Below the pieces are notes generated by a model. That model saw only the letters and a program-made list of their open reading frames with translations, made no database searches and was not told the origin of the DNA. A stretch of 64,000 nucleotides of DNA from Bacteroidales bacterium. Lineage in GTDB: Bacteria > Bacteroidota > Bacteroidia > Bacteroidales > WCHB1-69. Below are positions 8,550 through 59,286 of this stretch, in pieces. The stretch is taken from assembly GCA_024686335.1 (NCBI GenBank), contig JAILCI010000044.1, positions 1 through 64,000 on the forward strand, read 5' to 3'. How positions within the stretch are numbered: position 1 is the stretch's first letter; each line of letters starts with the position of its first letter. Made by a program: the position numbers and the translations under genes.

Positions 8550-10853
8550 ATGAATAAGGCAGGAAAACGAACGATCATCATCATCAGCGGAGCAATTCTG
8601 CTCGCCATTGCTGCGTTTGCCATCTTTGGTAGACATACCAAGGTGGTGGAGAGTATCAAACAGCAGACAGCCGTTTTGCTCAAAAAAGAGTACATTCCTG
8701 ACCAGCATGTGAACATAGACTCTACATTGGCTCTTAAAAAACTTGATTCAGTCTATAATAGTTTCCGAAAACACTTCAGGATGCATTATCAGACTATCGG
8801 GACTGCAACTTTTCCTGACAGCAGTCGCATTATCTTGATTGCCGAGCCAGCACCATTCCTCGAGCCTGACAGCATCGAGTCCATTTGTCACCAGTTCACC
8901 CACCAAACATCTCAGAAACACTTTAAAATAGGCTATGATGGTCGAATTACTGACATGGTTATTGTATTGGGCAATGCCACGACCGAGAATCTCGACAATC
9001 TGGTTACCAAGATTTCAAAAGAACAATATCTATCTGATTATAAACCTAATAGCATTGATTTGTTGAGTGATAAAAAGCGTCAGTATTTCACTAGAGACAA
9101 TCTTGATTATCAAATAACATTAGGAGAATTTGACGAATGGTTTTTCAATGCTGGAGAGGCTTTTATTGATGAAAAAGACACCACTAAGGATCTGACAGTC
9201 AGCGATATGTTTCAGCAGAAGCGTCGTGGGGTATTCTTCAGTCGCGCTCCGGGACTGGTAGCTTGGAGCATCCGCCGCGACAGCGATCTTTCAAAACAAG
9301 TTGGTGACATTCGTCGATTCGCACTCGATGCAGACCTTGTTCTAGGTGCTTTGCGCGACTCCACTACCCTAGTCGTCATCGGACGTGAGCGAGAAGTGCC
9401 TTTGGAGACCATGCCGCCATTGCGCGTTGAGACTGTCCTGCTTGTGGCATCTATTAGCAGCAAAGAATTGTCACAAAGTCTTGATATTAACGACTGTATG
9501 GCTGGCAAGATGGGAAATGGCCGCGACTGGTGTCCCACCTATTTAAGTCGTGAACTGGAAAATACTGAGTTAGGGCATCTGCTCACTATCACGGATGTTT
9601 TACTTAAAGACTGGTCGGAGAGCGGCACCATTGAGGAAGCCAGCTACCACTACCCTTCTCCTGGATATTTTCCATTTGACCAGCCGCTGTTTAAGAAATT
9701 AGGACTTAGCGAGTTGGTTTACAACTGGAATACAGCAAACACGATGTACGCTATTGATTTACCGGATTATACCATCTACACGCTTAACCGCACGGGCGCA
9801 TTGCCCGTCTCCTATTTCCACTCTCAGGCAAGGGCTACTAGCGTAGGTTCACAATATGAACGGCAAGCAGGCAACTATTTTGCACGTACTGGCAATACAG
9901 ATCTTGCCAGAGTAGTCCAATACACAGCTCTTTATCAGTTGTTTATGGATAATGGAATCCATTATAAAGGAAAACTTCTCCATTCTGTTTTCCCATCGGG
10001 AAAGCCTTATCTGCTGGCAAAACCATGTCGAAACTTAATGGATATTCTCAAAAATCTTACCGACAATCAGATTGAGCAACTCTCTGACACGCTTGCAAGA
10101 ATTCATTTTGATGCATACGTGGAGAAACAGGTAAGCAAACAGTTGAGAAAGAATGAAAGCGAATACAACTTCACCTATACGGAAGAGCACGAGAAAGCGA
10201 TTTTTCAGGATGTCAATCAGCAGGAAAAAGCATCTATGGCCAATGGATTCCGTGAGGTCCGTTCGCTTTTGAAAAACCTTTCCGAAGATGAATACACCAA
10301 GTTAGTGCGTTATCTCTCCTACCCTCGGGGCACTACCGTGAATAGTCAGGAAACCTATAATCGAATGCTTAAAGCTCAAAAAATCAATAATTTCCTACGT
10401 CACATGGGCAAGAACAATCTCCCATTGTTAGGAATGGATTTAGCAAAGGTTAAGGATTATTTTGTAGGAAGTCTCAGTAAAAGTGGCGGACGATATCTTA
10501 AAACCCCGTCTGTCATTGTCACCTATAACGATTTGAACACCACAGGAGGACATAATATCTCCTCAAAGATCAGTCGTGTGGGAAGTACCACAAACTACAA
10601 AAGGTCGGGAGGCAACGCACCCGTGGCACAGGCAAGCACACCACCGACATCACAAAAACCAAATACACCGAAAACTTCTGCTCCCTCTTCTGGCAGCAGA
10701 CCTACCACAACGGGCAAATCGTCCGGCAGTTCACACACAACATCGTCGAGCAAAAGCAGCACATCATCAGTGTCAAGACCCTCAAGTGGTGGTTTAGTTA
10801 GACCTCGTAGCAGTGTGATTTCCAGCAGTTCACGCACTACTAGAGGATTTTAA
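8550..10853 (+). CDS. Large membrane-anchored protein of unknown function with Ser/Thr/Pro-rich C-terminal tail
   Basis: N-terminal TM (RTIIIISGAILLAIAAFAIFG) and a 100-residue S/T-rich tail. Start chosen at the Met downstream of the TAGGTTTG box (8522-8529), not at the longest ORF start. Confidence 0.7.
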   Translation: MNKAGKRTIIIISGAILLAIAAFAIFGRHTKVVESIKQQTAVLLKKEYIPDQHVNIDSTLALKKLDSVYNSFRKHFRMHYQTIGTATFPDSSRIILIAEPAPFLEPDSIESICHQFTHQTSQKHFKIGYDGRITDMVIVLGNATTENLDNLVTKISKEQYLSDYKPNSIDLLSDKKRQYFTRDNLDYQITLGEFDEWFFNAGEAFIDEKDTTKDLTVSDMFQQKRRGVFFSRAPGLVAWSIRRDSDLSKQVGDIRRFALDADLVLGALRDSTTLVVIGREREVPLETMPPLRVETVLLVASISSKELSQSLDINDCMAGKMGNGRDWCPTYLSRELENTELGHLLTITDVLLKDWSESGTIEEASYHYPSPGYFPFDQPLFKKLGLSELVYNWNTANTMYAIDLPDYTIYTLNRTGALPVSYFHSQARATSVGSQYERQAGNYFARTGNTDLARVVQYTALYQLFMDNGIHYKGKLLHSVFPSGKPYLLAKPCRNLMDILKNLTDNQIEQLSDTLARIHFDAYVEKQVSKQLRKNESEYNFTYTEEHEKAIFQDVNQQEKASMANGFREVRSLLKNLSEDEYTKLVRYLSYPRGTTVNSQETYNRMLKAQKINNFLRHMGKNNLPLLGMDLAKVKDYFVGSLSKSGGRYLKTPSVIVTYNDLNTTGGHNISSKISRVGSTTNYKRSGGNAPVAQASTPPTSQKPNTPKTSAPSSGSRPTTTGKSSGSSHTTSSSKSSTSSVSRPSSGGLVRPRSSVISSSSRTTRGF

Positions 10854-10893
10854 GGACCGCTTATGAAATCCCATTTCATAGTTTAATCATTTT

Positions 10894-11318
10894 AGAACTA
10901 CATACCTGACGGCACATTCCGTGCCCAAGTATGTTGCTAATAGACTTTATTTTAGTAAGGCAAGGGCTTCATGGCACATAACTTCCATAATTATTATTCT
11001 TCAACTTTTCTCTTGATAGAAAAGTTGCCAAAAGATCAAGCCGACATGAATGCCTGCCCGCTCTGTCCGCCCTCTGACATCGGCGGCAAACGGGAACAAA
11101 AATGCAGCAAATAGCAAAAGGGAAAATACAAGGAAGGCATGCATTTTTGTAAACGCAAGCGCCTTTGCACGCCGCTGTTGGAGGCCGGCCATTCACACCG
11201 CGTCCGCACCGCATGTCGGCCTGCCCGCCCGCGTGCTCTATGGTCAGGTGACTCGGTAAATCATATTGGGGTTGAAATGCATTTATTTTTTACTTTGCCA
11301 TCATGAATATAACTTCTA
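10894..11318 (+). repeat. Interspersed TIR-bounded element, copy A
   Basis: Degenerate terminal inverted repeats (agaactacatacctgacggcac / ttgccatcatgaatataacttc) and the conserved core CAACTTTTCTCTTGATAGAAAAGTTGCCAAAAGATCAAGCCGAC at 11002-11044. Confidence 0.75.
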
Positions 11319-11347
11319 TAGTTTAATAATTTAATATTTTCATATCT

Positions 11348-11812
11348 TCATAAATCACATCCCTCATTATCCTTTTGCGAGAGATTGGCAATAATCTCAT
11401 CCAGAGGCGGGACTATTTTCATGAAAAGTTCTGGAGTAAGACCATTATTATGGAGCATTTGGGTCATGCAGCCAGGCACGTTAGCAGCCCGGGCTTCCAT
11501 TTCCCTACCCTGCTTGGTCAGACGAACATGTGTCTTGCGAGCATCAAGTTTGTCTTTGACACGTCTCACGATACCAGCTTCCTCCATACGTTTGATGAGC
11601 GGGGTCACCGTATTTGTTTCCAGTAAAAGTCGCTTTGCAATATCGTTAACTGGCTGACCGTCCTGCTCCCACAAAATCATCAACACGAGATATTGGGTAT
11701 ATGTTATACCCATCTCGGAAAGCCAAGGTTGATAGCCTTGAACAATCAGGCGTGCCACTGTATAAAAACGGAAGCACACCTGGTTTTCAAGTTTAAGTTG
11801 TTCGTAAGGCAT
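11348..11812 (-). CDS. MarR family regulator (OhrR-like)
   Basis: LKLENQVCFRFYTVARLI (conserved N-terminal Cys context) and winged-helix DARKTHVRLTKQGREM. Confidence 0.82.
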   Translation of the reverse strand: MPYEQLKLENQVCFRFYTVARLIVQGYQPWLSEMGITYTQYLVLMILWEQDGQPVNDIAKRLLLETNTVTPLIKRMEEAGIVRRVKDKLDARKTHVRLTKQGREMEARAANVPGCMTQMLHNNGLTPELFMKIVPPLDEIIANLSQKDNEGCDL

Positions 11813-25920: not shown

Positions 25921-25933
25921 TCGGATAGTTTAT

Positions 25934-26251
25934 GGAGTTATGTACCTGATGGCACCATGTATGCCCAAGTTTGTTGCTGATAGACATTTTCTTTAGGGAG
26001 ACAAGGGCTTCATAGCAGGCGACTTCCATAATTATAATTCTTCAACTTTTCTCTTGATAGAAAAGTTGCCAAAAGATCAAGCCGACAAGAATACCGCCCG
26101 CTCTGTCCGCCCTCTGACATCGGCGGCAAACGGGAACAAAAATGCAGCATGTAGCAAACGGAAAAATACAGGGAAGGCATGCATTTTGGGGTTATAATGC
26201 TTTTTTTTGACTTTGAACCCATCTTTGTTGTGCCATCTTGTATATAACTCC
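25934..26251 (+). repeat. Interspersed TIR-bounded element, copy B
   Basis: TIRs GGAGTTATGTACCTGATGGCAC and GTGCCATCTTGTATATAACTCC (19/22 as inverted repeats). Core hairpin at 26043-26068 and ATCAAG at 26076-26081. Confidence 0.85.
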
Positions 26252-26257
26252 CTAGTT

Positions 26258-53345: not shown

Positions 53346-53600
53346 TTATCCATTAATTATTTTTGGATAATTCGCATCTCTTTCGCCCCTTCAGGGCTTC
53401 CTTGATTCACACGCCATCACATACACAGGGGTTCACACCCCTGCCTGTATTCTGCCGCCCTTTCAGGGCTCTGTCAACGACGATCTTCTGTCATCATCAG
53501 AGCAAGAATATTGGCGTACCTTCGGCACGCTGATATGACACTGCACCGGCCAGCCCCACACTAACGTGCGGGGTTATTAGGATAGCGTGCCTCCAGCACG
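53346..53600. repeat. Hairpin-mosaic direct repeat, copy 1
   Basis: Nearly identical to 53751-54005, constant offset of 405 bp. Confidence 0.9.
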
Positions 53601-53750: not shown

Positions 53751-54005
53751 TTATCCATTAATTATTTTTGGATAATTCGCATCTCTTTCGCCCCTTCAGG
53801 GCTTCCTTGATTCACACGCCATCACATACACAGGGGTTCACACCCCTGCCTGTATTCTGCCGCCCTTTCAGGGCTCTATCAACCGCACTCTTCTGTCATC
53901 ATCAGATCAAGAATAGTGGCGTACCTTCGGCACGCTGATATGACACTGCACCGGCCAGCCCCACACTAACGTGCGGGGTTATTAGGATAGCGTGCCTCCA
54001 GCACG
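53751..54005. repeat. Hairpin-mosaic direct repeat, copy 2
   Basis: Nearly identical to 53346-53600. Confidence 0.9.
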
Positions 54006-57609: not shown

Positions 57610-57611
57610 AG

Positions 57612-57878
57612 GGAACTGTATGCCTAATGGCACATTGTAGGCCCAAGAATGTTGCTAATAGACGTTTTCTTAAGGGAGACGATGGCTTCATGGCAGGCAA
57701 TCCCCACAAATATAATTCTACAACTTTTCTCTTGATAGAAAAGTTGCCAAAAGATCAAGCCGACATGAAACCCGCCCGCTCTGTCCGCCCCAGGTGCCTC
57801 AGTAAATCATGTGGGGTTAAAATGCAATCTGTTTTGACTTTGCACTCATCTTTGTGGTGCCATCATGTATATAACTCC
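57612..57878 (+). repeat. Interspersed TIR-bounded element, copy C
   Basis: TIRs GGAACTGTATGCCTAATGGCAC and GTGCCATCATGTATATAACTCC (16/22). Core hairpin at 57721-57746 and ATCAAG at 57754-57759. Confidence 0.82.
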
Positions 57879-57897
57879 CGTATTTATGTCATCTCAT

Positions 57898-59286
57898 CTA
57901 AAAGAGCATTGCTGTCTGTGTGGCAGAAATACCCATCAGAATATAGAGCTTATCCATCAAGATGTATGCACCAATACCAGCCACATAGCCAAGCAATGCA
58001 TACGGAGTGATGTGCTTCAGATACCAAATAAAGTCGATCTTCTCCATACCCATAACGGCCACGCCAGCGGCGGAACCGATGATGAGGAGGCTTCCGCCAG
58101 TACCAGCACAGTAAGCCAGGAATACCCAGAAGAGGTGATCCATCGGGAAGCTGTACATACCCATAGCGCCAGCCACCAACGGCACATTGTCAATGATGGA
58201 TGAAAGAACACCAATCACAGAGTCGATGAGGTAGTAGTTGCCGTGGAAGATGTTGTCGAGGCTGCCAGCGAGCAGGGAGAGATGTCCTGCGCTCTGCAAA
58301 CCAGCCACTGCCAACAAGATACCGAGGAAGAAGAGGATACTAGGCAAGTCGATGCGGGAAAGAACGCCCGTGATGGTAAACCTGCGATTTGCATCCTGAT
58401 TGGCTTTGTGCAGAATCTCCGTAACAATCCAAAGGATAGAGAGACCGAACATAATGCCCATATAGGGTTTCAAGTGGGTTATAATCTTGAATACCGGAAC
58501 GAAAACCAGGGAGGCAATACCCAAGAAAAAGATAAGGTTACGTTGCCATGTCGGAACGCCATTATCCTTGTCTGCCTTCGGGCGCTTAGAAGCATCAATC
58601 TCGCCGCGCTCCACAAAGGAGACGATGATAAGCGGGATGATCATGGAAATGAGGCTCGGGATGAGGCAATGCAGCATCACAGCACCTGTGGAGACTCTTC
58701 CGGCAATCCAGAGCATAATAGTGGTCACGTCGCCAATAGGACTCCATGCGCCACCGGCATTAGCGGCCAGGATGACCATACCGCCGAAGAACCAGCGGTC
58801 ATGTTTGTCAGGGAGCAACTTCCGTAAGAGAGCAACCATAACAATAGCAGTGGTCAAGTTATCGAGGATAGCAGAGAAGAAGAAGGTGATAAAGCTCAAG
58901 ATCCAGAGCAGTTTCACCTTATTGGTAGTCTTGATGTTATCCGTAATGATGTTGAAACCACCGTAAGTGTCAATAAGTTCCACCACTGTCATGGCGCCCA
59001 TCAGGTAGAACAGAATCTCGGCAATGTCGCCAAGATGCTCAATGAGCTCATGTGTGGTAAGAAAGTCGATAAAAGGATGCGCGGAGTCGGGGTGCGCCTC
59101 TTTGAAGGCATCATAGCCAGCACTAAAGCCTGCCGGTTCGTATATGCTCGGACCAGTAAGGATGTAGAGCGTCCAGATCAAAACACCGGTCAATAATGCA
59201 AAGGCTGTCTTGTTGATCTTCAAAGGATGTTCAAGGGCTATACAGAGATAACCGATGACAAAAACGACAATCATTACATAAAACAT
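57898..59286 (-). CDS. nhaD: Na+/H+ antiporter NhaD family
   Basis: SAILDNLTTAIVMVALLRKL, GGMVILAANAGGAWSPIGDVTTIMLWIAG and YCAGTGGSLLIIGSAAGVAVMG motifs. Confidence 0.92.
   Translation of the reverse strand: MFYVMIVVFVIGYLCIALEHPLKINKTAFALLTGVLIWTLYILTGPSIYEPAGFSAGYDAFKEAHPDSAHPFIDFLTTHELIEHLGDIAEILFYLMGAMTVVELIDTYGGFNIITDNIKTTNKVKLLWILSFITFFFSAILDNLTTAIVMVALLRKLLPDKHDRWFFGGMVILAANAGGAWSPIGDVTTIMLWIAGRVSTGAVMLHCLIPSLISMIIPLIIVSFVERGEIDASKRPKADKDNGVPTWQRNLIFFLGIASLVFVPVFKIITHLKPYMGIMFGLSILWIVTEILHKANQDANRRFTITGVLSRIDLPSILFFLGILLAVAGLQSAGHLSLLAGSLDNIFHGNYYLIDSVIGVLSSIIDNVPLVAGAMGMYSFPMDHLFWVFLAYCAGTGGSLLIIGSAAGVAVMGMEKIDFIWYLKHITPYALLGYVAGIGAYILMDKLYILMGISATQTAMLF

Follow-up and report, generated by a model that had tools for sequence, protein, structure and literature searches.

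What is the structure that recurs three times in this stretch of Bacteroidales DNA, in which the entire loop of a hairpin is complementary to a hexamer just downstream, on what kind of element is it carried, and on which strand could it work? The window, that is, the whole stretch of 64,000 nucleotides that was analysed, contains the 26-nt hairpin CAACTTTTCT-CTTGAT-AGAAAAGTTG exactly at 11002-11027, 26043-26068 and 57721-57746, and no further one even at 3 mismatches; the chance expectation was 0 in 100 shuffles. The linker CCAAAAG and the hexamer ATCAAG follow directly 3′ of the hairpin in all three copies. The core is thus made up of a 10-bp stem (S1), a 6-nt loop, the linker and a loop-complementary hexamer, is identical in the three window copies, and lies exactly where a sequence-only reading had placed it:

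11002..11011, + strand, copy 1, 5′ arm of stem S1, CAACTTTTCT (exact match; stem covariation)
11012..11017, + strand, copy 1, hexaloop CTTGAT, the 5′ strand of pseudoknot helix S2 (match and covariation)
11018..11027, + strand, copy 1, 3′ arm of stem S1, AGAAAAGTTG (exact match)
11028..11034, + strand, copy 1, linker CCAAAAG, U-rich on the minus strand
11035..11040, + strand, copy 1, hexamer ATCAAG, the 3′ strand of pseudoknot helix S2 (match and covariation)
26043..26081, + strand, copy 2, pseudoknot core (S1 26043-26052/26059-26068, loop 26053-26058, linker 26069-26075, hexamer 26076-26081)
57721..57759, + strand, copy 3, pseudoknot core (S1 57721-57730/57737-57746, loop 57731-57736, linker 57747-57753, hexamer 57754-57759)

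A mechanical ORF of 127 aa runs over copy 3 (window 57627-58010, + strand) and is probably spurious.

In the home genome, a 2.74-Mb draft of 64 contigs, the core pattern matched 45 times, representing 43 cores and 2 unrelated matches, and the backwards-read control pattern gave 0; blast with the copy-2 element retrieved about 40 copies of the surrounding repeat. Three home-genome copies (C38, C40 and C61) carry a compensatory change of the closing pair, from ..TCT-CTTGAT-AGA.. to ..TCC-CTTGAT-GGA... Additionally, 396 Bacteroidota genomes were searched with a pattern that fixed the outer stem and CAAAA but set no condition on the loop, the hexamer or the two inner stem pairs (backwards control, 0). 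As had been suggested, the phylum-wide cores include related repeats with a different stem in which CTTGAT...ATCAAG is retained, and the covariation check proposed across Bacteroidota found that the loop and the hexamer themselves covary. By comparison with shuffles, which ignore relatedness and whose figures are not probabilities, the outermost S2 pair is Watson-Crick in 76/83 (TA 40, AT 26, CG 10; shuffle mean 31.6, maximum 48, 5000 shuffles), the 83 being those distinct combinations of genome and core, among the matches listed, whose CAAG end is intact, and the hexamer is fully complementary in 125 of 178 cores picked by stem and CAAAA alone, a choice blind to the pseudoknot (shuffle mean 74.7, maximum 90, 2000 shuffles). 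The two inner S1 pairs, left free in the same phylum-wide set, are paired in 79/83 and 78/83. A chance origin of the cores was rejected on the basis of the shuffles, the backwards-pattern control and the hexamer-complementarity shuffle test.

In an alignment of 48 sequences, hand-chosen mostly from the 178-core set and with S1 rows selected by pairing, 98.3% of the S2 cells are paired, two S2 pairs have changes on both sides, and a slid partner loses the signal. The compensated loop/hexamer types CTTGAT/ATCAAG, CTTGAC/GTCAAG, CTTGAA/TTCAAG, CTTGGC/GCCAAG and CTTGCT/AGCAAG recur across many genomes, which is independent support beyond the shuffles. Nearly invariant are CTTG/CAAG, together with CAAAA and the stem segment CTTTT/AAAAG, both of which were demanded by the searches, and the invariance of CAAAA in the phylum-wide alignment A2 is partly due to row selection. 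Where CTTTT was not required, the loop was 6 nt long in 191 cases, 5 in 3, 4 in 1 and 7-9 in none. On neither strand does the energy z-score of the domain go beyond a modest level (-2.0 and -1.3), so the case for the pseudoknot rests on covariation and not on stability. Judged by these alignments, the core is almost certainly a pseudoknot with an S1 of about 10 bp, a 6-nt loop and a 6-bp S2, and both helices are maintained by compensatory change.

The pairing proposed earlier holds, and beyond it the core proves to form the end of a larger structured module, roughly 90-230 nt in length, inside a mobile element. A further stem, P2, begins directly after the hexamer, where the best 12-nt complement scores above shuffled controls; its sequence is unrelated between families and its position is shared. 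In the window the full domain is present solely in copy 1, the P2 3′ strand having been lost from copies 2 and 3 through internal deletion:

11041..11048, + strand, copy 1, 5′ strand of the P2 closing stem, CCGACATG (fold; same P2 position in other families)
11049..11211, + strand, copy 1, domain interior with P3 and inner stems
11212..11219, + strand, copy 1, 3′ strand of the P2 closing stem, CATGTCGG (fold)

In two unrelated families, those of the home genome and of a second genome (G017, L105-L133), the conserved block spans from the first S1 base to the end of P2. One widespread module type has the recurring interior stretches GCTAAAA / TTAACGC and AACTCG...CTCAAACAG. An outer helix P0 around the whole domain was promising in the home family alone, was overall equal to the control, and was rejected. 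The second genome also has an inverted second hairpin, with the loop CCGGCA or CTGGCA and a 4-nt complement, placed about 360 bp from the CTTGAT core and near the other terminal inverted repeat (TIR).

The elements that carry the module in the window are:

10894..11317, + strand, copy 1, whole MITE-like element with degenerate terminal inverted repeats at both ends
25933..26252, + strand, copy 2, whole element, internally deleted (TIRs 25933-25955 and 26230-26252; flanks TAGTTTA/TAGTTTT)
57611..57879, + strand, copy 3, whole element, internally deleted (3′ TIR 57857-57879)

The full-length home-genome element is about 440 bp and has the TIRs GGGACTATATACCTGATGGCAC at the 5′ end and GGGAGTTATATACATGATGGCAC inward from the 3′ end. 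AT-rich direct flanks of 8-9 bp border many home copies, for example AACTTTAAA on both sides of one copy, and the site orthologous to that of copy 2 is empty in five congeners, three of which (G406, G410 and G413) have the core elsewhere in the genome. The home-type core occurs in just 4 of 40 genus genomes, the home genome counted, with patchy copy number. The marks of a MITE, namely terminal inverted repeats, direct-flank repeats and an empty site, are all found, and the home-genome copies are very probably inserted mobile elements. The second genome, from a different family within the same class, holds at least 40 copies, which have other TIRs (ACTGAGTATCCGC) and AT-rich flanks of 8 bp. The same module is found inside different termini, and non-autonomous mobile repeats very probably carry it through the Bacteroidota.

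Two internally deleted forms of the home element lack the hairpin (about 51-131 and 97-230 of the consensus); they lie at two sites each, G000:C5:60897 and C59:21767 for one pair and C32:36246 and C10:83974 for the other. We read the first pair (about 51-131), from its shared variants, as probable copies of one another. Since the hairpin-less forms occur at two sites each, the hairpin is unnecessary for TIR-driven movement. A TIR scan of the 64-contig draft found no autonomous transposase element with the same TIRs, and inverted cores enclosing an ORF, as an autonomous element would have, gave a single candidate, which had ordinary-looking genes inside and was rejected. BrickBuilt of Porphyromonas gingivalis, a Bacteroidales MITE (PMC4596501), is likewise non-coding, intergenic and multi-copy with terminal inverted repeats, but its TIRs differ from those of the home element. 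In contrast to MITEs of Bacteroidales, conservation is here highest in the internal folded domain instead of at the termini, and the same domain lies inside different TIRs.

The resident copies are under constraint. Among the home-genome copies the core differs in 8/1434 cells (0.6%), compared with 13% in the 5′ flank and 10% in the 3′ flank, which upholds the proposal that conservation within the element peaks in the core. Private mutations, counted in aligned copies that were picked by a 12-nt core match, number 1/1434 in the core versus 162/7039 in the element flanks of the home genome (p=4e-12) and 5/1282 versus 154/5574 in the second genome (p=3e-9); a blast list free of the core requirement added only two more cores, both point-mutated. 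Core positions mutate far less than element flanks. Junk DNA homogenised by gene conversion between copies, a structure without present function, would fit the multi-copy state, the near-identical central part and the patchy occurrence within the genus. However, two unrelated families conserve just the block that runs from the opening base of S1 to P2, and gene conversion cannot produce covariation between distant genomes, and we regard this explanation as very improbable.

The same constraint bears on the main rival, in which single-stranded DNA adopts the fold as a signal of the REP/REPIN or attC type for a transposase or recombinase, and the helices covary because amplification or recombination selects for them. 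If amplification were the only selective force, cores would not be expected to stay intact in copies with already diverged flanks. The high copy number and tandem arrays speak for such a signal, as do core pairs less than 700 bp apart, 7 of which face inward and 0 outward, and an architecture that stays constant while the sequence differs in each genome. Y1 transposases of the Bacteroidetes subclass 2.6 are reported to be flanked by atypical secondary structures with copies elsewhere in the genome (PMC6006769); these structures are the nearest published lead. Matches to Y1 were present in 17/17 genomes searched, some of them weak. Nevertheless, 1.25 Mb around cores contained no weak-class Y1 gene and one IS200-like match alone, and no recognisable CTTG core lay within 1.5 kb of the Y1 genes examined. 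REP/REPIN repeats with TnpA_REP (RAYT) resemble the element as dispersed, clustered or inverted-paired palindromic intergenic repeats, but the element has no adjacent Y1 gene, is much longer, and has a loop that pairs with a downstream hexamer. A REPtron with an adjacent Y1 gene was rejected, there being no adjacency in the regions around cores or Y1 genes. On balance we consider the single-stranded DNA reading unlikely. Six inward core pairs lie 380-630 bp apart (L176, L201, L225, L260, L265 and L275), and their loops differ, each with compensation.

As for the strand of action, mismatches in 228 cores, read on the + strand, comprise 26 A.C, 4 G.T and 16 others, and A.C on the + strand is G.U on the minus strand. 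At paired positions of the second genome 12 G>A versus 4 C>T events occurred, and its flanks are balanced at 18 versus 20. The P2-side gene runs along the minus strand, toward the element, at 54/89 loci (expected 45%, p=0.004), tandem gene pairs are minus-strand in 37 cases versus plus-strand in 18 (p=0.014), and on virus-collection contigs a minus-strand gene stands on either side of 8 cores versus a plus-strand gene on either side of 1 when every core is counted, or 6 versus 1 when counted one per contig. In a Parabacteroides MAG, most of six compact copies lie shortly after stop codons of minus-strand genes. Copies in the home genome have no gene-orientation preference, and those in the second genome prefer convergent gene ends. 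On the IMG/VR contigs (L152-L160), the cores are mostly between co-directional genes, some of which appear to resemble phage structural genes.

A functional + strand RNA would make the S1 hairpin first and lay the A-rich linker along S1. The position and A-rich composition of the linker suit an H-type pseudoknot on the + strand, and by the usual rules for RNA pseudoknots a linker of 6-7 nt should span S1 more easily there. The recurrent T.G/G.A pair at the foot of P2 resembles a + strand motif and favours this reading, and once it is set aside the P2 wobbles are about balanced, which runs counter to the minus strand. Against the + strand stand the core mismatches, 26 A.C versus 4 G.T, and the gene orientation, and we judge a + strand RNA to be quite improbable. 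The minus strand is favoured because of the G-U wobbles (26:4), the orientation of flanking genes and the phage-contig contexts, and a minus-strand RNA is probably the working form.

Based on these findings, we propose how a minus-strand RNA could work. First, the P2/P3 stem-loop would be made, directly followed by a U-rich tract, CUUGAU plus UUUUUG or CUUUUG. The S1 hairpin would come next, and its loop AUCAAG could pair back with CUUGAU. Such an RNA would be laid out like an intrinsic terminator in which the next hairpin captures the U-tract again, and its role may be to mark or stabilise transcript ends at gene boundaries. The minus-strand tract directly after P2 is CTTGATTTTTTG or CTTGATCTTTTG, with a mean of 7.6 U per 12 nt, and a stem-loop with a U-tract directly after it, the criterion for an intrinsic terminator, is found on this strand. 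Although resembling Rho-independent terminators in this respect, the module has a long branched stem and not a short GC hairpin, and it adds a second conserved hairpin that pairs with the tract; a simple scan misses it. Such a terminator scan, which considers loops of 3-8 nt alone, found no P2/U-tract terminator in window 10800-11400 or in the L213 elements of the Parabacteroides MAG. If transcription stopped in the U-tract, the S1 hairpin would be unmade, and therefore the pseudoknot would be roleless in the simplest terminator model. We hold the whole explanation, a mobile pseudoknot module acting as a minus-strand terminator-like RNA, at just under an even chance, and a terminator-like or 3′-end role is put forward tentatively from the sequence layout.

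The Parabacteroides locus (L213 1043-7412; G435:C2:49053-55364) raises another reading, that a compact version of the module marks the ends of exchangeable gene modules as a cassette-boundary site. Here six compact elements, each a pseudoknot plus one hairpin, stand in one orientation over 6.3 kb and alternate with small gene modules (nucleotidyltransferase/HepT-like pairs, a PD-(D/E)XK AAA gene and an endonuclease/phosphatase family), with a tyrosine recombinase gene a few kb away. The arrangement could be cassette-like, but it is a single case. Elsewhere, tandem copies mostly follow one another with no intervening ORF, and a boundary function for the module has little probability. Integron-like attC arrays as a general rule were rejected, since most arrays are without ORFs and one Parabacteroides array has them. 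To return to the minus-strand RNA, its broadest form, an as yet undescribed mobile module of structured RNA that occurs across the phylum, has a terminator-like stem-loop whose U-tract pairs with the loop of the next hairpin in a covarying pseudoknot, and sits on unrelated repeats, on phage-like contigs and at the boundaries of toxin-antitoxin-like modules, is possible but rather doubtful.

The genome-wide scan gave at least 118 stretches with the core. Among the 80 matches listed nearly all are from Bacteroidota or Balneolaceae, and two are from Fusobacteria (L161, a MAG, and L178, Propionigenium). When one family's domain was searched in phage and plasmid collections, none was found in phages, and short core matches occurred in three Persicobacter replicons alone. 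The covarying pseudoknot and multi-stem domain resemble the structured RNA families of Rfam; in Rfam 15 no family reached the gathering score for the element in the window or for 11 related loci, and copy 1 had no match even at E<=1. Among the papers searched on pseudoknot or repeat families in Bacteroidetes, none was found to describe the module. Elsewhere in the window, the Rfam Acido-Lenti-1 RNA (RF01687) has two matches above the gathering score, at 53425-53470 and 53830-53875 (+ strand), 405 bp apart.

In conclusion, if the proposed explanation is true, a very common fold of Bacteroidota would be an undescribed module that is carried on several mobile repeats and kept by selection in the resident copies. 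It would account for some of the spurious small ORFs over these repeats, and it would provide a testable model for transcript 3′-end formation or insulation in Bacteroidota.
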